Of a DNA stretch of 64,000 nucleotides, positions 34,795 through 53,060 are shown one piece after another. The position numbers were made by a program, and so were the translations under genes. The notes under the pieces were generated by a model. That model worked only from the letters and a program-made list of their open reading frames with translations. It searched no databases and was not told the origin of the DNA. Numbering within the stretch: position 1 is the stretch's first letter; every line of letters begins with the position of its first letter. This DNA is from Oscillospiraceae bacterium (GTDB lineage: Bacteria; Bacillota; Clostridia; Oscillospirales; CAG-272), in contig SVUK01000004.1 of the NCBI GenBank assembly GCA_015063325.1, positions 1 through 64,000 of the forward strand. The letters are read 5' to 3'.

Positions 34795-37700
34795 ATGATC
34801 ACAACAAAAAGAAGACTTTTGAGAGGACTGATCGCGGTTATTATGATCATCAGTATGTTTGCGATTGTCCACATCATGCCGATGGCGGCAAAGGCTGATG
34901 GCGATGTGCCTGTGCCCGGCGGCAGGGTCATTGTATGGAGCGGCGAGACGCTCCTGAATACCTTTTCGATGCGCGACGGTGAAACCCATAAGCTGACCGG
35001 GTCTGATTCCGCAAACGGGATCACCGTCAATTATTTGGGCGGTCAGTTATTATCCGACTCTGGGTTTTATGCAAACTACGAAAGCAGCACCAACTCTAAT
35101 ACGAAGATCATACGTCTGAACAACTCTGACAGTGAGCTGACGTTTACGTCAGCCTCCGACAACAGTTTTATCACTAAGATCGTCATAGAGTTCGATAAGT
35201 ATTTTACTATTTCCGGAGCTACCAGCGATACCACGATCGACCACATTGTGGTCAACCACGGCGCGTGGACGAATGAGGATGTAATAGGCAGCAACGGCAA
35301 GCACACGCTGACTCTGGAAGGCAATGCGGCGCGCAGCGTCACAATAAGAAAAAACAGCGATACCTATCATTACGGGATCCGTGGGATCACCTCCATCCGG
35401 TTCTACATAACGGAAAACCTCTATACGATTCCCACTCTTGAGAGCGGCTTTTACGTGTATGATCAGGAGGACGGCGGCGTCAAGATCGTCCACGGCAATC
35501 CCGCCAGACCGCTCGCCGGCTCGCCGTTCATTGTCAGAAGCGGCGGCAAGATCGCCGGCTTTTCTCAGGCTGACGCCGACGATACGACGTCCTATACGAT
35601 AGAAAATCCTACGGCGGCGTTTACATTTGAGCTCGACGATGGCAGCGATACGATAACAGTCGACAATATCGACGATTTCATGCTGGCGTTGGGGCTGGCG
35701 CGCTACCGTTCGATCTACCTCTCGGCCGACCTCACCTTTGATGGCGGCTTTACGATCACGAGAACTGTCAGCATAGACCTCAAAGGGAAGTCGCTGACTT
35801 GCGACAGTTCTGCGACTGACAAAACCATCCGTGTGACCGGCGGTAATCCTACTGTTACGAGCACCGGCTATTATTGGTATGATATCGTAAACAGTGATAT
35901 CAGCGGCTTTGACAAGATCGAGGTCACCGGCGGTTCGCTGACGATCAAAGGCGGCAGATATGATCTCCCCGAAGGCTTCAGCGGAAACGTCAGACTGTCG
36001 GGCGGTCTCTACAAGCTGAATGATGCGGTCGATATGAATAAACTGGCCGACAGCGCCGTCAACCATTTGCCTGTTGAGATCGACGGCACTTGGGCAGGGC
36101 TCAAATTTCACGTTCATGACTATAATACGATCTTTGAAACGCTTAGCGACGGCGGTATTCATTATATCAATCGCTGTGACGGATGCGACCACACCGTAAA
36201 AGAGTGGACGCTCACCAACGAAGAGATCAACACGCTGATCGGGCTCAACGGCGGCGCCTTTACTCCCGTGACCAACTGGAACCCGAATTCACCGGGCTCA
36301 GTTACCCTCTATCTGAGAATAACCGAGGACACCTACAACACCGCGATCGCCGCGCCCTATAATATGAACGCCGACGCGCTGAAAATGCTCAGAGACAACG
36401 GTATTCTCGGCAATTGGGAAACACACGGCGCATGGACGAACTATTCAACAGAGAACGGCGGCTATCACTCGGATGACGTGGATATCACCTTCGATGATGA
36501 CGGGTATCGTTATGTAGGCGTCGACGAACCGATGACCGTCACCTCGAAAAACGGCAAAAATATCTACCGCGCCGTGATACATATAGATGAATATTACAAA
36601 GAGCGGACTAACCAGACGTACGTCAACAGAGGCAATGCGATCATATCCGACGACGCTTTGACCATCACGGTAACGAATATCAACTCCAAGTCCTTCACGT
36701 TTAACTTCAGCGGAGCATCTTATGAGTTCGTGCCGGTCGAATCGGTCGAGTTGTGTTATGCAGGCAGCGGCCAAAACATCAGCTATGTTACGGTGAACAC
36801 GACGCCGGATGCCGATAACTGCTACGGCCACACGATGACCTATGACTATCGCGATCACACCTATACCTTACACTTCACCAGCACGAACCCGCATCATCAT
36901 CTGCAAGGCGAGCCTGACTGGAATCTCACGGATGACGGCGTCAATGCTACTATGACGGCAACAACGCATTGTACCGTATGCGGCGAAGAACTCCATCTTA
37001 ACGTTGAATCGTACTCTTCGGGCACCCGCGAGGCGACGTATACGCGAGAAAGAACAAAGCTTTGGCACTTCCTTGCGCAAACGGACCAATACTATTATTA
37101 TGATTATTTGCAGGTCATAGGTCCGAAGCTCCCGGTCACCACTCATTCTATTGAAGATGGAAACGGCAACATACTCGAATACTATGAAGATGAGAGTACC
37201 GGCAAGTATTTCATTGATCTTGACGGTCCGGCCATTGCGCTTGATCAAATTCGCATTCCGGAAACCAAGATCGACGCTGTTCCGGCAGCCGACGAGGCGG
37301 ACGGCAACATCGAGTATTACACCTGCTCGAACGGAAGATACTTCAAGCTCGAAGACGGCAAGTATATTGAGATCGCAAGAAACGCCTGGGTGTCACACAT
37401 AGGCGAGTCTGAAGAGATCGATTTGACGATGCATCGCGGTACGATGGTCTTCACCGGTCAGAATGTCAAGGTGACTGCTGACATGATCTGGGACTGGTAT
37501 AGCTCTTATAAAGGTGTAACCTTGTTCGGCTCTGCAGCACATGTTACCGGCTTAAACGGCAAGAAGATCAAAGCGATCGAAGTGACCAGATCGAAGGACG
37601 CAAGCTACGCTAGCCATATCTATATCAACGTTGGCGGAGAATATGATCATGACTATACTTTGATCGGCGACAGCGGCGATGTATTTATGTACGGCAACTT

Positions 37701-40700
37701 ATCCGCTTCCGAGGTAGCAGTGTACGGCGACTTTAACAATATCACGTCTGTCAAGGTCTGGTACTATGATGATTCGATGATCGTCACTTATACGAAGGTA
37801 GGGGCGATTGATCCCACTCCTACTGCGACGGGCAACATCGAGTACTACATCGGTCCTGACGGCAGATACTACGTCAGAGACGGTGCAAGATACGTGAGGA
37901 TCGCGGAGAACTCCTGGATCATTCCCAAAGTCGTTCTGACCAAGTACGAAACGACACCGGCGACCGAAAACGCTGCCGGCAACACCGAGTATTACGCCGG
38001 CGACAACGGCAAGTATTACGTCAAGAACGGCGACGATTACGATGAGATCACGTATAACTCGTGGATTATTCCCGCCCTCGACGGCAGTACGTTCGAAACC
38101 ATTGTGATACACACCGAATGGGATCCAAAAACCCTTTTCAGCGGAGAAAACGCCGACGTATCCTGCGACATACCCACCTTTAATGAAATCTGCGTTGACG
38201 GCCAAGAAAACAGAAACTTGTACATTAACGCGAAATACGGCAAGACGTTTTATAAGGTCGTATTCCATATCTCAAGTTTGGAAGGAAACTCCGTTTACGC
38301 AAAGACCGACAAGGGTGCGATAGAGGTTTCCGATGACGGACGGACCGTCACGGTATGGAACTTCAGCTCCGACAGTCTCATGCTTTCCAACAAGATGGCC
38401 TTCTACGTAAATTCCGTTGACGTGTATTATACCGGCAGACCGGTCACGATCCTGACCTATTTAGATGAGAGTTTCGTTTTCAACGGCTCCAACGATTACT
38501 ACGGCGATCTTGCGTCCGCCCACGCCGACCTGTGCTATTCCGACGGCGCTTATGTCAGAACGTATGAAACCGGTGAAGAATCAAGTAAGATAACCGTCAC
38601 CGGAAAGAACGGACAGGAACTCTACAAAGTAGTCTTCCACGTCAGTTATAACACGGAAAGAAGCTGGTGGGCGAAGGTCGATCACGGCAACATCTCCGTA
38701 TCCGATGACGGCACGACGATCACCGTGACGGACATCGGCGCAAACTCCGTCACGCTTTCGACGAATTTCTGTGACGAAGATCATTTGTGGGACAGAGAAG
38801 AATGGGAGGAAGACATTCCCTGGGATACCTACTTCCAGGTAAGCTCTGTCGACATTTACTGCTGGGTAAACGAAGCAGAGAGAGTTACCTATTTGAAAGT
38901 TCCCGCAACGGCTCCTACCTTCACCTCGGCGGGCAACACCGAGTACTACGTCGGCTCGAACGGCAAATACTATGTCAAGGACGGCGGAGACTACACCGAG
39001 ATCGCCGAAAATTCGTGGATCATCCCCGTCATCACCCTTGAAAAGGTCGAGGCGAAAGCCGCCACCGTTGACGAGGCGGGCAACACCGAGTATTATATCG
39101 GCTCGGACGGCAAGTATTACGTCAAGAACGGAAACGATTATACCGAGGTAGCAAAGAATTCCTGGGTCATTCCCAAGATCACTTCCTATACGGTAACCTG
39201 GAAAAACTACAACGGCACCACTCTTGAAACCGATGTAAAACAGGTAACCGGCGCCAATCCGTCCTATGACGGTGCAACGCCTACCAAACCCGCAGATGCG
39301 GACTACGTTTATACCTTCTCGGGCTGGACTCCCGCGGTCGTTCCCGTATCGGGCAACGCGACCTATACGGCTGTCTTCACCGCTTCCCCGAAACCCGACG
39401 TTGAGTTTTCCGGCAGAGTCTTTGACGACGGTGTACTCGAAGCAGATCAGCTCTCGCTCGGCGACGTCATCTCCCGCGGTATCTACTTCTTTAATTGCAA
39501 CGGTAAAACCATCGTTCTCAAGGGCGGCAGATACGGCACAAGAAATGGTGATGTATTCACGGTAGTATCCGCCAACAGTGCCGGATACACCGATCTGGGT
39601 ATTACATTCAATGAATTCTGTGAACTGTATGACTATGACGGCGGTAGCCTTTTCTTCCCTGCTAAACAGAGCGGCGAGCTCGCCGATGCCGTGCTCGTTA
39701 TGGCAATAGACGGCAACACGATCACCCTCGGCGGTTGTGAGCTTCCGGAGGGTTACGTTCACATCACATACGAGAGAGTTTGGGAAGAATTGCCCACCGA
39801 AACCCAACCGGGTATCCGTGAACACTACATCGGCTCCGACGGCAAGTATTATATTATGGAAAACGGCGAATATGTCGAGGTCGATTACGACTCCCTGATC
39901 ATTCCGCCTACAGGCGGCGGCTCCGACCAGCCCGGCGGAGAAGGATCACAGGACGGACTCACAGCTTCTCAGATGACCGCCGATATGATCGAGAATATGC
40001 ATGATGTCTCCGATATGCCCGGCAACTTTGTTCAGGTCGATTTGGATACTGCAAGGTCATGGACCGGCGCGCCGCAGAACGGTTGGGCGCATCTGATTTA
40101 CGCAACCGAAAATGGTGACCTGAAAGAGGTTGGATTCGAAAACGGAATGGTAATGGGCGACGGTATGCTCAGAATATCGGATTTGTCGATGTTCCTTAAT
40201 TGGGGCGAAGCGGTTTATTACGTTACCGGCGCAGGTTCCGGCTCCGGCGGACAGGGCTCACAGGGCGGTCTTACGGTTGTTCAGATGACCGCTGATATGG
40301 CTGAAAATGTTCATTTTGCCTATGATATGCCCGGCAACTTTGTTCAGGTCGATCTGGACACTGCAAGGTCATGGACCGGCGCGCCGCAGAACGGTAGGGC
40401 TTATTTGGTCTATGGAGTTGAAAATGAAGATCTGCTGAAAGCAGTCGTGTTTAATTGGGGAGAGTTTAACGACGATAGAACTTTCTTCGCACAAGAATTA
40501 CGAGATTTCATCAATTGTGGTGAGAGCGTCTATTATGTCACCGGCTCAGGCTCACAGGGCGGCTCAGGTCAACAGGGGGGCAATCTTGCGGTTTCTCAGA
40601 TGACCGCAGATATGGCAATGAGTATCAATTCCGTCAACGATATGCCCGGCAACTTCGTTCAGGTCGATTTGGACACTGCAAGATCATGGACCAGCGCGCC

Positions 40701-42975
40701 GCAGAACGGCAGATCATATCTGATCTATGGTGTTGAAAATGAAGAACGTCTGAAAGCTATTGTTTTCTTTGAGGGACGCTTTGAAGACGAAAGAGGATTC
40801 TTTGCAGATGAATTCAGAATGTTCATCGACTGGGGCGAGAGCGTCTATTATGTCACCGGTTCCGGCTCACAGGGCGGCGGTAATGAACCTCAGATCACCT
40901 ACACCAGAGTCGACTACAAGGCGCCTACCCCCAACGAAACCGGTAACCAAGAGTACTACATCGGTTCGGACGGAAACTATTACGAGAAATACAACGATGA
41001 ATATTATCAGAATCCGATCGACTACTTCGTTATCCCCAAGGTTTCCGTAACACGCCGCGCGGCGGTTGTGGCTACTCCCAACGCAGCCGGCAACATCGAG
41101 TACTACACCGGTAATGACGGTAAGTATTATGTGAAGAACGGCAACATCTACGAAGAGGTTTCTTCTGCTTCCGTTACCATCGCAAAGGTTAGTGTCACCC
41201 GCCATGAGGCAGTCGCCGCTACCTACACCTCGGAGGGCAATACCGAATACTACATTGGCGCTGACGGCAAGTACTATGTAAAGAACGGCAACAACTATAC
41301 CGAAACAACGCTTGAGGCTGTTACCATTGCAAGACTTACGCTTGTTCATCATAATGCGGTCGCCGCTTCCTGCACGGCAAACGGCAATACCGAGTACTGG
41401 CATGACGAAGCGAACGACAAGTACTTCTCAGACGCAAATGGAGAACATGAGATTTCGCTTGCAGAAACGGTTGTACCCGCAGGCGGACATTCCTTTGGCG
41501 AATGGGTTGTGACCAAAGAGGCGCAAGTGGGCGTGAAGGGCGAAGAAACACGCACCTGCTCTGTTTGCGGCAAGACTGAAACGAGAGAGATCGCAGCTCT
41601 GCCCTATGTACCGGTTACAAATGAAGACGGTGACAAAGTGTACGCCGAAACCGTGACAGAAGAAGTCAAAGATGTAACCGTACTCTTTGCACAAGCCAAA
41701 GCGGAGGAAGGCACGGTCGAAGTTCAATCGAACGATTTTGCAATCGTATTTGACAGCGCTGCGGTCAGTGCGATCGGCGACGCCAATGTGACGCTTTCGG
41801 CAAAGGTAGTCACCGAAGACCTGCCGGAGAATGTACCGGAAAATGCTGAACTCGTACTGGAAGTCACACTCACGGGCGCAACGTTCGAAGGCGGTCAGGC
41901 AAAGGTAACCATTCCGTTTGAAAAGGAAGCTCCCGCGGGTAAAGTTGCCAAGGTTTATTATATTGATGATGACGGCAACAAAACCGATATGAACGCAACG
42001 TTTGAAAACGGCAAGGTAACTTTTGTAACCAACCACTTCTCCACCTATGTGTTGGTGTTTGAAGAGGCTGAGGCTGATGAAGATACCCTGAAATTCTACG
42101 GCGCATCACTCACCCTGCAGAACAATCTGAAAGTGAACTTCTTTGTGGAAAAAGATTTGATCGATGGAAACGGATATGAAAATCCCTACGTCCTCTTTAA
42201 CATGAACGGCAACGAGATCACCGTTTCGGATTATACTGTCAGCGGAGACTATTATGTATTCAGCTTCAGCAACATTGCTCCCGACAAGATGAACGATACC
42301 ATCACCGCTGCGCTTCACGCCACTCGTGACAGCATTGAATATGTCAGCGACGAACTGGAATACAGCATCGCGCAATATTGCTATTCCATGCTGAGCAAAG
42401 AGACAACAAGTGATGCGTTGCGCACCTTGCTTGTAGATCTTCTTCATTATGGCGCGGCATCTCAGCTTTATACCGACTATAATACGGATGCATTGGTTGA
42501 CGCTTCTTTGACTGCGGAACAACTCGCGTGGGGCACGGCGGCAGATCCGGATATGACGTCGGTGACAAATGCTCGCTATCACGAGATCGATAATCCGTCG
42601 GTATCATGGAGCGGTGTGTCACTGAACCTGAATGATTCAATCACCATGCAGTTCGTTTTCGCCGTGGAAAGCACCGAAGGAGTAACGGTTAAGGTTACAA
42701 ACGGAAACGATGCTCTTTTGAAAGAAATTTCAGAGGAGGAACTTGTAGCTGCCGGCGGATACTATGTTGCAAAGTTCAAAGGGCTTACTGCCGGACAGAT
42801 GAGCGATACCGTTTACGTCACGGCGTATCGTGGAGAGGAAGCGATCAGCAACACGGTGGCGTACAGCATTGAATCTTACGCCTGCGCAAAGCAAAATGAC
42901 GCGAATGCTGTTCTCGCAAACCTGGTCAAAGCCATGATGAAATACGGAAATTCGGCATTTGTCTACGCGCAATGA
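34795..42975 (+). CDS. Giant (2726 aa) secreted repeat protein with multiple repeat families and duplicated C-terminal domain
   Basis: Signal peptide MITTKRRLLRGLIAVIMIISMFAIVHIMPMAAKA; RBS 'aggagg'; about 10 'GN(T/I)EYY.G.(D/N)GKYYVK(N/D)G..Y.E' units; 3 'MPGNFVQVDLDTARSWTGAPQNG' units; one InlB-like unit. Confidence 0.85.
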   Translation: MITTKRRLLRGLIAVIMIISMFAIVHIMPMAAKADGDVPVPGGRVIVWSGETLLNTFSMRDGETHKLTGSDSANGITVNYLGGQLLSDSGFYANYESSTNSNTKIIRLNNSDSELTFTSASDNSFITKIVIEFDKYFTISGATSDTTIDHIVVNHGAWTNEDVIGSNGKHTLTLEGNAARSVTIRKNSDTYHYGIRGITSIRFYITENLYTIPTLESGFYVYDQEDGGVKIVHGNPARPLAGSPFIVRSGGKIAGFSQADADDTTSYTIENPTAAFTFELDDGSDTITVDNIDDFMLALGLARYRSIYLSADLTFDGGFTITRTVSIDLKGKSLTCDSSATDKTIRVTGGNPTVTSTGYYWYDIVNSDISGFDKIEVTGGSLTIKGGRYDLPEGFSGNVRLSGGLYKLNDAVDMNKLADSAVNHLPVEIDGTWAGLKFHVHDYNTIFETLSDGGIHYINRCDGCDHTVKEWTLTNEEINTLIGLNGGAFTPVTNWNPNSPGSVTLYLRITEDTYNTAIAAPYNMNADALKMLRDNGILGNWETHGAWTNYSTENGGYHSDDVDITFDDDGYRYVGVDEPMTVTSKNGKNIYRAVIHIDEYYKERTNQTYVNRGNAIISDDALTITVTNINSKSFTFNFSGASYEFVPVESVELCYAGSGQNISYVTVNTTPDADNCYGHTMTYDYRDHTYTLHFTSTNPHHHLQGEPDWNLTDDGVNATMTATTHCTVCGEELHLNVESYSSGTREATYTRERTKLWHFLAQTDQYYYYDYLQVIGPKLPVTTHSIEDGNGNILEYYEDESTGKYFIDLDGPAIALDQIRIPETKIDAVPAADEADGNIEYYTCSNGRYFKLEDGKYIEIARNAWVSHIGESEEIDLTMHRGTMVFTGQNVKVTADMIWDWYSSYKGVTLFGSAAHVTGLNGKKIKAIEVTRSKDASYASHIYINVGGEYDHDYTLIGDSGDVFMYGNLSASEVAVYGDFNNITSVKVWYYDDSMIVTYTKVGAIDPTPTATGNIEYYIGPDGRYYVRDGARYVRIAENSWIIPKVVLTKYETTPATENAAGNTEYYAGDNGKYYVKNGDDYDEITYNSWIIPALDGSTFETIVIHTEWDPKTLFSGENADVSCDIPTFNEICVDGQENRNLYINAKYGKTFYKVVFHISSLEGNSVYAKTDKGAIEVSDDGRTVTVWNFSSDSLMLSNKMAFYVNSVDVYYTGRPVTILTYLDESFVFNGSNDYYGDLASAHADLCYSDGAYVRTYETGEESSKITVTGKNGQELYKVVFHVSYNTERSWWAKVDHGNISVSDDGTTITVTDIGANSVTLSTNFCDEDHLWDREEWEEDIPWDTYFQVSSVDIYCWVNEAERVTYLKVPATAPTFTSAGNTEYYVGSNGKYYVKDGGDYTEIAENSWIIPVITLEKVEAKAATVDEAGNTEYYIGSDGKYYVKNGNDYTEVAKNSWVIPKITSYTVTWKNYNGTTLETDVKQVTGANPSYDGATPTKPADADYVYTFSGWTPAVVPVSGNATYTAVFTASPKPDVEFSGRVFDDGVLEADQLSLGDVISRGIYFFNCNGKTIVLKGGRYGTRNGDVFTVVSANSAGYTDLGITFNEFCELYDYDGGSLFFPAKQSGELADAVLVMAIDGNTITLGGCELPEGYVHITYERVWEELPTETQPGIREHYIGSDGKYYIMENGEYVEVDYDSLIIPPTGGGSDQPGGEGSQDGLTASQMTADMIENMHDVSDMPGNFVQVDLDTARSWTGAPQNGWAHLIYATENGDLKEVGFENGMVMGDGMLRISDLSMFLNWGEAVYYVTGAGSGSGGQGSQGGLTVVQMTADMAENVHFAYDMPGNFVQVDLDTARSWTGAPQNGRAYLVYGVENEDLLKAVVFNWGEFNDDRTFFAQELRDFINCGESVYYVTGSGSQGGSGQQGGNLAVSQMTADMAMSINSVNDMPGNFVQVDLDTARSWTSAPQNGRSYLIYGVENEERLKAIVFFEGRFEDERGFFADEFRMFIDWGESVYYVTGSGSQGGGNEPQITYTRVDYKAPTPNETGNQEYYIGSDGNYYEKYNDEYYQNPIDYFVIPKVSVTRRAAVVATPNAAGNIEYYTGNDGKYYVKNGNIYEEVSSASVTIAKVSVTRHEAVAATYTSEGNTEYYIGADGKYYVKNGNNYTETTLEAVTIARLTLVHHNAVAASCTANGNTEYWHDEANDKYFSDANGEHEISLAETVVPAGGHSFGEWVVTKEAQVGVKGEETRTCSVCGKTETREIAALPYVPVTNEDGDKVYAETVTEEVKDVTVLFAQAKAEEGTVEVQSNDFAIVFDSAAVSAIGDANVTLSAKVVTEDLPENVPENAELVLEVTLTGATFEGGQAKVTIPFEKEAPAGKVAKVYYIDDDGNKTDMNATFENGKVTFVTNHFSTYVLVFEEAEADEDTLKFYGASLTLQNNLKVNFFVEKDLIDGNGYENPYVLFNMNGNEITVSDYTVSGDYYVFSFSNIAPDKMNDTITAALHATRDSIEYVSDELEYSIAQYCYSMLSKETTSDALRTLLVDLLHYGAASQLYTDYNTDALVDASLTAEQLAWGTAADPDMTSVTNARYHEIDNPSVSWSGVSLNLNDSITMQFVFAVESTEGVTVKVTNGNDALLKEISEEELVAAGGYYVAKFKGLTAGQMSDTVYVTAYRGEEAISNTVAYSIESYACAKQNDANAVLANLVKAMMKYGNSAFVYAQ
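37270..41520 (+). repeat. Dispersed 'GNTEYYIGSDGKYYVKNGxDYTEVAxNSWIIPKI' repeats (about 10 copies)
   Basis: Repeated translated units, e.g. at about 37290, 37825, 37965, 38925, 39070, 39800, 40920, 41070, 41215 and 41360. Confidence 0.85.
39958..40860 (+). repeat. Three near-identical repeats of about 300 nt ('QMTADM...DMPGNFVQVDLDTARSWTxAPQNGxxxLxYxxEN...WGExVYYVTGxGS')
   Basis: Near-identical DNA 'atgcccggcaacttygttcaggtcgatytggayactgcaagrtcatggacc' three times, separated by Gly/Ser/Gln-rich linkers. Confidence 0.9.
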
Positions 42976-48549: not shown

Positions 48550-48670
48550 TAGGTTTTTAAAATATTTGTTTCCAAAAGTGGAATATTATTTTTGACTAAC
48601 CGATTTTAAATATTGTTAAATATTTTTATAATTCCAAAACAGGAACGAACAGCCGAGGAACAATTCGTCC

Positions 48671-48783
48671 GCCGCGCCGGGCGGTGACGGTGCCCGTCAC
48701 CGCAAACAAAAAAGGAGCAAAACGCAAAAATTGCGTTTTGCTCTTTTTTAACTCCGCAAACGTTCCGTTTGCGGCGGCGCGGC
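48671..48783. repeat. Cloverleaf-like inverted-repeat element, copy 1
   Basis: Outer stem GCCGCGCCG/CGGCGCGGC enclosing three hairpins: GCGGTGACGG/CCGTCACCGC; GAGCAAAACGCAA/TTGCGTTTTGCTC; CCGCAAACG/CGTTTGCGG. Confidence 0.8.
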
Positions 48784-48790
48784 GCGGCAG

Positions 48791-49033
48791 TTATCGAATT
48801 TCCTGATCCAGCGTGCGGAAGGTGTCTGTGTTAAAAAAATCGAAGATGGAAATGCCCATCCCGTCGCAAAGCATTTTGATCGTTACAATTCCCGGGTTGG
48901 TGCTTTTTCCGTAGAGAATATTTTTGATGGTAGAGGGAGGCACGGCGGATTCGGTTGCGAGTTTGTGAATGGACAGATGATATTCTCCGCAGAGTGCCAG
49001 CAAGCGGTTTTTGACAGCCGAGCAGGTATCCAT
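48791..49033 (-). CDS. XRE-family HTH transcriptional regulator (80 aa)
   Basis: 'NRLLALCGEYHLSIHKLATESAVPPSTIKNILYGKSTNPGIVTIKMLCDGMGISIFDFF'. Confidence 0.88.
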   Translation of the reverse strand: MDTCSAVKNRLLALCGEYHLSIHKLATESAVPPSTIKNILYGKSTNPGIVTIKMLCDGMGISIFDFFNTDTFRTLDQEIR

Positions 49034-49085
49034 AGTAAAGAAACCCCTTTTTCAAAAGATTCAGGATAATTATATCCAAAAAGCC

Positions 49086-49114
49086 TTGACAAAGTGGGCT
49101 ATATATGATACAAT
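49086..49114 (+). promoter_or_regulatory. Sigma-A promoter of the peptide/exoprotein operon, with overlapping dyad CTATATATGATACAATATAG
   Basis: TTGACA - 17 nt - TACAAT; dyads at 49099-49118 and 49120-49129. Confidence 0.75.
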
Positions 49115-49159
49115 ATAGGCTATAAATAGACCATTTCAAAAAAAGGAAAGGAGAAAAGG

Positions 49160-49279
49160 ATGAAAAAACTCTATCAACCGCCGGAAATTCTGAAAATTTC
49201 AATTGATTTACAGGATATTCTGACCACCTCGCCGGGGAGCAGTGAACTTGACCCGGACATGAAGATTTCAAAGCCCTAA
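49160..49279 (+). CDS. Short peptide, 39 aa (MKKLYQPPEILKISIDLQDILTTSPGSSELDPDMKISKP); member 3 of the family
   Basis: RBS 'aaaggagaaaagg'; perfect sigma-A promoter upstream; N-terminal similarity to ORFs at 2785 and 42990. Confidence 0.82.
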   Translation: MKKLYQPPEILKISIDLQDILTTSPGSSELDPDMKISKP

Positions 49280-49314
49280 AAAAAGAAAAAAGGACAAAAA
49301 AGGAGAAAAAGAAA

Positions 49315-51111
49315 ATGAAAAAGAAGATTTTATGGTTTGTTTTGACCGCGGTTTGCCTTGCGGCGTTGCTTGGCGCATTTTTTGCCGTCAATGCAACCGA
49401 AACACCGGCAACCGACATTGTCGGACACAACCTCGCGCTGGATGACAGCATTCAGATCGACATTATTTATTATGTTGATCAAACGGCTCCCGAAGGGGCA
49501 GAGACCGGCGTTCTCTGTTGGTTTGCGCCGCAGGAGAGCTATACTCTTGAAAACGCGGAGTACAAGCTGAAGCAAAACGGCACGAGAATCATCGGCGGAA
49601 AAGAATACGCGCAGTATAATTCCCCGCGCATCCACGCAAAGATGATCACGCAGGACGTTTACGCCGTTTCCTACGTCAAAGTAGGCAATGAAGTTACCTA
49701 CAGCGATCTGGATAAATACAGCGTGTTGCAGTATTGCTACAACAAAAAAGGCAGTACCTTCGTTCGTCCCGGCGGCACGGCAACCTTGGGCGAGCTGATT
49801 ACCGATATGCTCAACTACGGCGCAACGGTGCAGAAATACTTCAATTTTAATACCGACCGTTTGGCAAATGCCGAGTACCACATGAACACCGTGGTGGACG
49901 GCACGCTGAAAGACGGAACGGCGCAAGGGCTTTACTACGTTGGCGAGACGATTGTCCTGTCGACCGATAGGGTCATTCCCGAGGGCTACCGTTTGGTTTG
50001 GCGGAACAGCGCCGGCGTTTCGCTGGGCGTTGGGCGGACGATTGAGGTTGCCGCTCCCTCAAGAAATGAAACCTACACCCCCGTTTTGCAGGACGCAAAA
50101 CTTGCGAAAGCCGCCTATACACGCATTGATGCAGACGGAAACGAGGACGAGAACGGCGACTACATTCTGTTCGGTTCCTATCCGCAAAGAGAAATTACCG
50201 ACGGCACGCTCAAGCTCATGCTCATGATGCAGGTCGGCACGGTGCCCACCCCCGAAGACCCGAAGGGCTGGACTTCCTACGGCTACTATATCGAAGGCAC
50301 CGTACAGGATTATATGTGGTACGTCGATGTTTCCTACAACGGCGAAACCTACCGCGGCGTGTATTTCACTTCCTATCGGTCGGATTGGACAACAAAAGCT
50401 TCCAACAAGGATAACACCCTTCAGGACGATTACGGATATACCCCGAATAATTTCTATTGGTTCCTCTATGAGCCGCTCAAATGGAGAATTCTTTCCGAGG
50501 AGGACGGCACGGCACTGATCCTTTGCGAAAGCATTATTGACAGCCAGCAGTATTATAACAACACCGACAATCGCACCATTGACGGGGAGACGATCTATCC
50601 AAGCAACTACGAACACAGCGACATTCGCGCATGGTTGAATAAGGTCTTCTACGAAACGGCGTTTGACAAATTGCAACAAGAGTTGATCGAAACAACGTTG
50701 GTTGACAACAGCGCAAGAAGCACGAACCCAAACAATAGCGCAACAGCATTCAATGGTGGAATCAATCTGTATACATGTAAAGATACCGAGGATAATGTAT
50801 TCCTCCTCAGTGAAAAAGAAGCTACAACTTCGGCATATGGTTTTGGAACATATGACAGTTATGGTCCGACTAATACAAGATGTAAGAAAACCACGGCATA
50901 TGCAAAAGTACAAGGTGTATGGATTCCTTCTGCAGATTACGCCGATAACGGGCAATGGTGGCTCAGGTCACCGGATTATGCCTATTCTACCAACGGGCGT
51001 TGCATCAGCCACGGTGGATGGGCAAACCCGGATAATCGCTGTAATCCTAACAGTACACGTTTTGGCATTGTCCCTGCTATGCAAATTTGGCTTGGAACTC
51101 TGCCCGAGTAG
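49315..51111 (+). CDS. Secreted protein: N-terminal domain shared with the giant protein C-terminus, then a DUF6273-like (C-type-lectin-like?) domain
   Basis: Signal MKKKILWFVLTAVCLAALLGAFFAVNA; 'EPLKWRILSEEDGTALILCESIIDSQQYYN', 'WLNKVFYETAF', 'WWLRSP...GIVPAMQIWL'. Confidence 0.8.
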   Translation: MKKKILWFVLTAVCLAALLGAFFAVNATETPATDIVGHNLALDDSIQIDIIYYVDQTAPEGAETGVLCWFAPQESYTLENAEYKLKQNGTRIIGGKEYAQYNSPRIHAKMITQDVYAVSYVKVGNEVTYSDLDKYSVLQYCYNKKGSTFVRPGGTATLGELITDMLNYGATVQKYFNFNTDRLANAEYHMNTVVDGTLKDGTAQGLYYVGETIVLSTDRVIPEGYRLVWRNSAGVSLGVGRTIEVAAPSRNETYTPVLQDAKLAKAAYTRIDADGNEDENGDYILFGSYPQREITDGTLKLMLMMQVGTVPTPEDPKGWTSYGYYIEGTVQDYMWYVDVSYNGETYRGVYFTSYRSDWTTKASNKDNTLQDDYGYTPNNFYWFLYEPLKWRILSEEDGTALILCESIIDSQQYYNNTDNRTIDGETIYPSNYEHSDIRAWLNKVFYETAFDKLQQELIETTLVDNSARSTNPNNSATAFNGGINLYTCKDTEDNVFLLSEKEATTSAYGFGTYDSYGPTNTRCKKTTAYAKVQGVWIPSADYADNGQWWLRSPDYAYSTNGRCISHGGWANPDNRCNPNSTRFGIVPAMQIWLGTLPE

Positions 51112-51114
51112 AAA

Positions 51115-52068
51115 GTGACCATCCCGGAAACCTATACGCGCATTGACGTTGACGGCAACGAGGACGAAAACGGCGACTACGTTCTGTTCGGCTCCTATCC
51201 GCAAAGCGAAGTGAAGAACCACGTTCTCGAAACCATGCTGAACACCAAAGCCGGCGATCTTCCCACCGCCGAGAATCCGCAGGCGTGGACGTCCTACGAC
51301 TACTATATCAACGGCACCGTGCAGGATTATATGTGGTATCAGGACGTTACCCTGAACGGCGAAACCTACCGCGGCGTTTATTTTGAATCCTATCGACCGT
51401 CTTGGACGATTTATTATTCCTCGACTGGCAACAGCGACCAAGACGAGAATGGCTATTTTGTCGGTAATGTTTACTGGTTCCAATACGAGCCTCTCAAATG
51501 GAGAATCCTTTCGGAAGAGGATGGCACAGCGCTGATTCTTTGCGAAAGCATTATTGACGGTCAGCAGTATTATAATAACACCAGTGACCGTACCATTGAT
51601 GAGCAAATCTATCCGAATAACTACGAATACAGCGATATTCGCGCATGGCTGAACGAGGTGTTCTATGAAACAGCGTTCACCGAATTGCAGAAAGCGCTGA
51701 TTGAGACGACGCTGGTTGACAACAGCGCAAGAAGCACCAATCCACAGAATGAAGTATGGAACAACGGCGTCAACGTTTATGCCTGCAACGACACCGAAGA
51801 CAAAGTCTTCCTGCTTTCCGAGCGAGAGGTCACCAACAGTGAATATGGGTTTAACGGCGATTCCAATCGCATCAAAGTTCCAACCGCTTATGCAAAAGTA
51901 CAAGGAACATACATAAATAACGGCGATGGTGTTTGGTGGATCCGGTCGCCGTATTGCAACTATTCTCTCTACGGGCGCGGAGTCAGCTACGGTGGCATTG
52001 CCGCTCACTACGGTAACGTCTTCCACGCGGATTACGGCGTAGTTCCCGCTTTGCAAATTCGTTTCTAA
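51115..52068 (+). CDS. Second DUF6273-like domain ORF, in frame with and directly after the TAG of 49315-51111; no signal peptide of its own (possible readthrough product or pseudogenised part)
   Basis: Strong similarity to residues of 49315-51111 ('YTRID.DGNEDENGDY.LFGSYPQ...'); GTG start 3 nt after TAG, same reading frame. Confidence 0.65.
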   Translation: MTIPETYTRIDVDGNEDENGDYVLFGSYPQSEVKNHVLETMLNTKAGDLPTAENPQAWTSYDYYINGTVQDYMWYQDVTLNGETYRGVYFESYRPSWTIYYSSTGNSDQDENGYFVGNVYWFQYEPLKWRILSEEDGTALILCESIIDGQQYYNNTSDRTIDEQIYPNNYEYSDIRAWLNEVFYETAFTELQKALIETTLVDNSARSTNPQNEVWNNGVNVYACNDTEDKVFLLSEREVTNSEYGFNGDSNRIKVPTAYAKVQGTYINNGDGVWWIRSPYCNYSLYGRGVSYGGIAAHYGNVFHADYGVVPALQIRF

Positions 52069-52103
52069 TTTATATCCCTACCGGGGCGGCGTTGCAAAAT
52101 AAA

Positions 52104-52226
52104 ACCCCCGCCGCGCCGGCGGAACGGAAACGCGGAGCGTTTCCGTTCCGCAACGCAAAAAGGAGAGCAAAATTTGCTCTCCTTTTTGCGTTGGAACCCG
52201 GCAATGCCGGGCGGCGCGGCGGGGGT
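52104..52226. repeat. Cloverleaf-like inverted-repeat element, copy 2
   Basis: Outer 14-bp stem ACCCCCGCCGCGCC/GGCGCGGCGGGGGT enclosing hairpins 52119-52151, 52151-52193 (21-bp arms) and 52197-52211. Confidence 0.88.
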
Positions 52227-52286
52227 GTGGGGTTAGAAAAAAGCAAACCTTTCCCAGTTTTTCAAGTTTTTCAAAACGGGGAGAGC

Positions 52287-52332
52287 GCGAGAGGGGAGAA
52301 ACCTTTTTGAAAAAAGGTTTCTCCCCTCTCGC
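52287..52332. repeat. Long intergenic hairpin, copy B (22-bp perfect stem)
   Basis: GCGAGAGGGGAGAAACCTTTTT-GA-AAAAAGGTTTCTCCCCTCTCGC, 15 nt downstream of the nagB stop. Confidence 0.85.
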
Positions 52333-52346
52333 GGCCTTTCTCCCCC

Positions 52347-53060
52347 TCAATCCTTACTGTAAATCACGGTAACGTCGGGGTGGAGCTGCAGGACGGAAGC
52401 CTGAATTTGTGGCGTAACGGGACCGGAAACGGCTTTTTGGACGATCTCTTTTTTTGCCGCGCCGTTGGCGATCAGCAAAATTTTGCGTGCGCGCATGATG
52501 CTGCCAATGCCCATGGTGAGTGCCGAGCGAGGAACCTCGTCGACGCTTTCAAAAAATCGCGCGTTTGCCGCAATGGTGGAAGGATGAAGCGCAACAAGGT
52601 GGGTGGATTCCACAAAGCAGTCGCCTGGCTCGTTGAAGCCGATATGACCATCCAATCCAATGCCCAAAAGCTGCAAATCGATTCCGCCAAGTTCCTCAAT
52701 CTTGCGGTCGTATGCGGCGCACTCGGCGGCAGAATCTTCGGCAAGTCCGTTTGGAACAAAGGTTTTTTTCGGATCAATATTAACCGAATCAAACAGGTTC
52801 TTTTGCATGAAATAGCGGTAGCTTTGCGGATGGTCGCCGCCTAACCCCACATATTCGTCTAAATTGACCGACGTGATTTTCGAAAAATCCAGCTCGCCGG
52901 AGCGGTATCGGGCAATCAGATTTTGGTAGATTCCTACCGGCGAAGATCCGGTGGCAAGTCCGAGAACGGAATTGGGTTTCTTTTGAATTTGTGCGGCAAT
53001 GATATCCGCGCCGCGGCGGCAAAGTTCATCGTATGTATCAACAATTTGAAAATCAATCAC
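52347..53060 (-). CDS. nagB: Glucosamine-6-phosphate deaminase
   Basis: 'LGLATGSSPVGIYQNLI', 'SVNLDEYVGL...SYRYFMQKNLFD', 'LLGIGLDGHIGFNEPG'. Confidence 0.94.
   Translation of the reverse strand: MIDFQIVDTYDELCRRGADIIAAQIQKKPNSVLGLATGSSPVGIYQNLIARYRSGELDFSKITSVNLDEYVGLGGDHPQSYRYFMQKNLFDSVNIDPKKTFVPNGLAEDSAAECAAYDRKIEELGGIDLQLLGIGLDGHIGFNEPGDCFVESTHLVALHPSTIAANARFFESVDEVPRSALTMGIGSIMRARKILLIANGAAKKEIVQKAVSGPVTPQIQASVLQLHPDVTVIYSKD

Follow-up and report, generated by a model that had tools for sequence, protein, structure and literature searches.

The window analysed here is a stretch of 64,000 nucleotides that forms part of contig C18 of an Oscillospiraceae genome (G000; 1.68 Mb in 24 contigs). 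Its recA-nagB interval holds a small HTH regulator gene and two DUF6273 genes, flanked by two copies of a cloverleaf-shaped repeat, and the accessory segment as a whole runs from 48608 to 52353 (Table 1). Synteny comparison over a 20-kb part of the window placed the recA and nagB homologies 121 bp apart in the related genome G006, where the segment is absent, and found ftsK between the two genes in G016; homology breaks about 60-130 bp outside the two copies. A near-identical copy at GAPDH likewise follows a small regulator gene and lies near a DUF6273-like protein. These observations suggest that cloverleaf copies and accessory genes may travel together. Elsewhere in the window, one called gene at 34795-42975 on the plus strand is about 8.2 kb long.

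Table 1. Positions of the cloverleaf parts and the enclosed genes in the window
Feature	Position	Strand	Basis
Copy 1, outer GC stem, left half; octamer GCCGCGCC at 48671-48678	48670..48679	.	Fold; genome-wide octamer repeats
Copy 1, first side hairpin, GCGGTGACGG/CCGTCACCGC	48681..48703	.	Fold; arm also in L029
Copy 1, central A-tract/T-tract hairpin, putatively terminator-like both ways	48709..48749	.	Fold; scanner for the minus strand; symmetric A/T tracts for the plus strand
Copy 1, second side hairpin, CCGCAAACG/CGTTTGCGG	48754..48774	.	Fold
Copy 1, outer GC stem, right half	48775..48784	.	Fold; 99% identity with the C14 copy ends here
Small HTH regulator gene, 3' end abutting copy 1; start approximate	48791..49033	-	Gene call; homologs with plain terminators
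Two DUF6273 genes (49315-51111, 51115-52068)	49315..52068	+	Pfam PF19789; G006 lacks the segment between recA and nagB
Copy 2, outer stem, left half (15 bp)	52104..52118	.	Fold
Copy 2, first side hairpin	52119..52151	.	Fold; inverted self-match
Copy 2, central A-tract/T-tract hairpin, putatively terminator-like both ways	52152..52192	.	Fold; terminator reading inferred
Copy 2, second side hairpin, CCCGGC/GCCGGG	52197..52211	.	Fold
Copy 2, outer stem, right half	52212..52226	.	Fold

The initial annotation had described a GC-rich outer stem around three hairpins, the central one A/T-rich, at 48671-48783, and a second element of the same architecture at 52104-52226. Its sequences and coordinates proved accurate for both copies, and folding bore out the architecture. 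As DNA, copy 1 reaches a minimum free energy of -57.2 kcal/mol, against -28.7 +/- 3.0 for its shuffles (z -9.6), and folded as RNA it scores a z of -9.35; copy 2, which has three hairpins and whose outer stem is 15 bp long, scores a z of -13.8 against shuffles. The repeat unit spans about 85-115 bp across the family and in nearly all copies follows one order: GCCGCGCC, a side hairpin, a short linker, a long central arm, a short linker, a second side hairpin and GGCGCGGC. The central GC hairpin with its flanking A-tract and T-tract is present in all clear copies. The outermost pairs are disturbed in L034, L053 and L055, and L056, L100b, L104 and L105 form irregular cloverleaves.

Searching G000 with copy 1 revealed an inverted, 99% identical copy at C14:137072-137185. 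The match ends one base outside each octamer and the surroundings of the two copies are unrelated; these boundaries support a unit that would have been copied whole, and gene conversion between two old copies would give the same 99% pair. A scan of G000 for the spaced motif GCCGCGCC-N70-100-GGCGCGGC found 7 sites, and the reversed control found 0. The genome-wide covariance-model search that the initial annotation had proposed was run (model R1) and recovered nine clear cloverleaf copies in G000. The family totals 30 copies that were read and folded, in four species of one genus (G000, G006, G016 and G028), with 5-12 copies per bearing genome. Clear copies were found in 3 of the 34 other species sampled from the genus; the covariance model found no clear copy in the remaining 31 sampled species, among which G030 gave one doubtful match. 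The same model search found the cloverleaf absent from 25 genomes of other genera, and among 297 genomes of the order (149 genera) only G000 gave a match, the wider searches being strictly filtered and run with a five-copy model that very diverged relatives could escape. Searches of plasmids and phages returned no cloverleaf match. In Rfam, only tRNAs reach the gathering threshold and no family covers the cloverleaf; hairpin matches at relaxed thresholds stayed below it and were judged to be chance. Pattern-scan matches in genome_contigs (among the matches listed) and in IMG/VR were likewise judged to be chance, with folds unlike those of the family, and the weak model matches L036, L037, L038, L043 and L057 were excluded from the count because they lack a clean four-way fold.

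The case for structural selection hung on further copies and on covariation, and both were found. Because plain MAFFT columns put the arms of divergent copies out of register, we matched arms by their distance from the stem base and also used a model-fitted alignment. Paired with their own strands, the three arms match at 100%, 99% and 95%; when the 3' strands were swapped between copies, pairing dropped to 51%, 59% and 69%. An alignment of 18 copies showed pairing in 97.6% of cells, against 78.4% when shuffled, with 26 of its 39 pairs changed on both sides, and its covariation score of 0.550, obtained from a model-fitted alignment that leans towards structure, compares with 0.161 for shuffled and at most 0.105 for slid controls. 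Two-sided changes in this set outnumber one-sided changes by 135 to 7, or about 19 to 1. The outer octamer is nearly invariant within the 18 copies, and compensated outer-stem changes occur outside them, in L035 and L052. G-T pairs make up just 14 of 1,167 (1.2%), whereas they reach 12.3% when shuffled copies are folded. A G-U pair on one strand corresponds to A-C on the other. In an RNA that acts on one strand, changes of pair should run by way of G-U intermediates. The excess of two-sided changes and the rarity of G-T pairs therefore favour a DNA structure, use of both strands, or the copying of one arm onto its partner in concert as the probable source of this pattern of change. Covarying structures are usually taken as RNA, and the cloverleaf family offers a clean test of DNA-level palindrome maintenance.

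All 30 scored copies are intergenic, with genes called by hexamer bias, and in many cases a stop codon is 5-50 bp away. Of the 26 copies whose two neighbours are known, 13 lie between convergent genes, 12 between tandem genes and 1 between divergent genes. Control gaps of at least 80 bp in the 64-kb window were convergent in 4 of 22 cases and divergent in 6 of 22, which gives an excess of convergent placements (p = 2e-4) and a lack of divergent ones (p = 3e-3); counted by intergenic bases instead, the values are 0.02 and 8e-4, and all are indicative because the control is a single window and the copies are non-independent. A simple terminator scanner flagged the central arm of copy 1 on the minus strand only and left that of copy 2 unflagged; on the plus strand of copy 1, the symmetric A/T tracts would likewise make a terminator. 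By its anatomy, the central arm would be a two-way intrinsic terminator, and the copies probably halt transcription from both sides. A transcript terminated at this arm would be free before the outer stem could form, so something else must explain why the outer octamer is conserved; the simplest explanation is that the octamers are the DNA-level ends of a copied unit. The cloverleaf is much more than a simple terminator. The initial annotation had suggested structural selection rather than a simple terminator; the structure is indeed kept, as covariation across the 18 aligned copies attests, and the contrast itself was half right, with the central arm terminator-like and the copies in terminator positions.

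The same sites in relatives show what else can occupy them. In G000 and G028, the small HTH gene next to copy 1 has a cloverleaf at its end, but its homologs in G006, G022, G012, G007 and G014 end in plain hairpin terminators, which identifies the slot filled by the cloverleaf as a terminator slot. At xpt, homology reaches the cloverleaf in G000, and ordinary hairpins stand at the site in G006 and G028. The ends of GAPDH and PEPCK carry copies in both G000 and G028, and species differ in the gene next to the copy at GAPDH, PEPCK and xpt. The site of L034 in G000 and L052 in G006 holds cloverleaves in both genomes; their arms differ, the outer stem shows compensated changes, and the flanks are 77-87% identical. 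These shared sites and the relatives' hairpins indicate that copies can persist in place while their arms turn over, and they suggest that ordinary gene-end terminators are replaceable by repeat units.

On balance, we think it probable that the cloverleaf is a palindromic repeat restricted to the genus, one that moves or once moved and that serves as a bidirectional terminator. This explanation builds on what the data show: a repeated family, a covarying fold, copies that sit between genes at their 3' ends, and a single whole-unit duplication of very recent date. In the proposed mechanism, the central arm would stop RNA polymerase from either side, so that each copy would act as a bidirectional intrinsic terminator, while the conserved inverted ends and side hairpins would mark a DNA-level unit copied whole in a REPIN-like manner. 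A true REPIN or MITE would be non-autonomous and depend for its movement on a transposase (Y1/RAYT or DDE) with the inverted ends as its recognition site; this reading is possible, on the unlikely side. Two inverted conserved ends (the octamers) enclose a folding spacer that covaries as the interior does in REPINs (PMC3116915), the element has been duplicated as a whole unit, and the copies are extragenic. Against this, no Y1/RAYT transposase (PF01797) was found in the four bearing genomes G000, G006, G016 and G028, two of which are only 61% and 71% complete, and a mobilizer of this kind was rejected. Single-REP halves are also missing, since, contig-end truncation aside, octamer, hairpin and A-tract occur together only in full copies, and the check for target-site duplications raised by the initial annotation came out negative, with no consistent direct repeat at 23 copies. 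These absences leave REPIN-like behaviour without REPIN membership and a classical MITE target-site test that failed. For the MITE/REPIN-like element suggested by the annotation, membership of either class fails on these features.

The window copies bracket a segment missing from G006, and neighbouring genes vary at GAPDH, PEPCK and xpt; both facts fit a folded, attC-like recombination site that exchanges accessory gene segments at the DNA level, as does the rarity of G-T pairs. We nevertheless regard this as decidedly unlikely, as only one bracketed segment is seen, its edges do not fall exactly at the homology breaks, and G016:C24 carries two copies amid ordinary genes; unlike integron attC sites, the cloverleaf copies are scattered rather than arrayed. 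A structured RNA was another option in the initial annotation; that selection acts on one, e.g., on a small RNA or a 3' UTR stabiliser, has become highly improbable. The RNA fold is very stable and covaries, but G-U pairs are nearly absent, two-sided changes dominate, no Rfam family passes, and termination at the central arm would free the RNA ahead of outer-stem closure. A more far-reaching proposal, which we consider unlikely, would make the cloverleaf a DNA four-way junction, extruded or folded from single strands, and recognised by an enzyme that would copy it and recombine accessory gene segments there; its arms would be kept perfect by template switching, in which one arm is copied onto the other, rather than by stepwise compensation of the RNA type, and its terminator activity would make gene 3' ends tolerant landing sites.

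Several known systems share parts of this design. Organelle double-hairpin elements are intergenic repeats with several GC-rich hairpins that may be mobile although no enzyme is known for them; they resemble the cloverleaf in these traits and differ in being organellar and lacking a terminator arm. Bidirectional intrinsic terminators share the central A-tract/T-tract hairpin and likewise sit at the 3' ends of genes, in many cases convergent ones, whereas the central arm described here is embedded in a conserved cloverleaf that belongs to a homologous repeat family. REPINs of Pseudomonas are REP doublets that form hairpins with a covarying interior (PMC3116915), and the likeness extends to conserved inverted ends, a variable spacer with compensatory changes, extragenic location and whole-unit replication. 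The cloverleaf differs in that its four-way junction is closed and bears a terminator arm at its centre, and it has few copies per genome, in genomes where the Y1 search found no RAYT. Bacterial MITEs such as Correia/NEMIS, RUP and ERIC (PMC2229807) are similarly about 100-200 bp long, intergenic and stably folded with terminal inverted repeats, whereas the cloverleaf is multi-armed with GC-rich ends, has neither target-site duplications nor TA ends, and has no parent insertion sequence known from searches by octamer pattern. Stem-loop families (PMC2267715) and the template-switch correction of quasipalindromes (PMC7202029) provide further background. A literature search, with most subscription journals outside its reach, found no cloverleaf terminator repeat, and we file the family as a new form among bacterial intergenic palindromic repeats. 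It is also a test case for small repeats that spread without a recognisable transposase.

Loss of SbcD was considered as the reason that such palindromes survive and was rejected because SbcD status does not track the cloverleaf; among 35 genomes of the genus, none reached the curated cut-off of TIGR00619, and 34 matched it only in part, over about 90 residues. L057 (G006:C72) appears to be a degenerate cloverleaf at the 3' end of PEPCK, where G000 and G028 carry intact copies. A second intergenic repeat, a long GC-rich hairpin after gene stops, lies at 52286-52333 in the window and in the flanks of L027, L029, L035, L041, L046, L048 and L054; it accompanies most cloverleaf copies and is also found away from them. 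Short CCCGGC..GCCGGG hairpins within a GGAACC/GGTTCC palindrome occur at L317 (the typA 3' region of G016) and in the flanks of L027, L042, L044 and L047, and, recurring beside cloverleaves, they may constitute another small multi-hairpin repeat.
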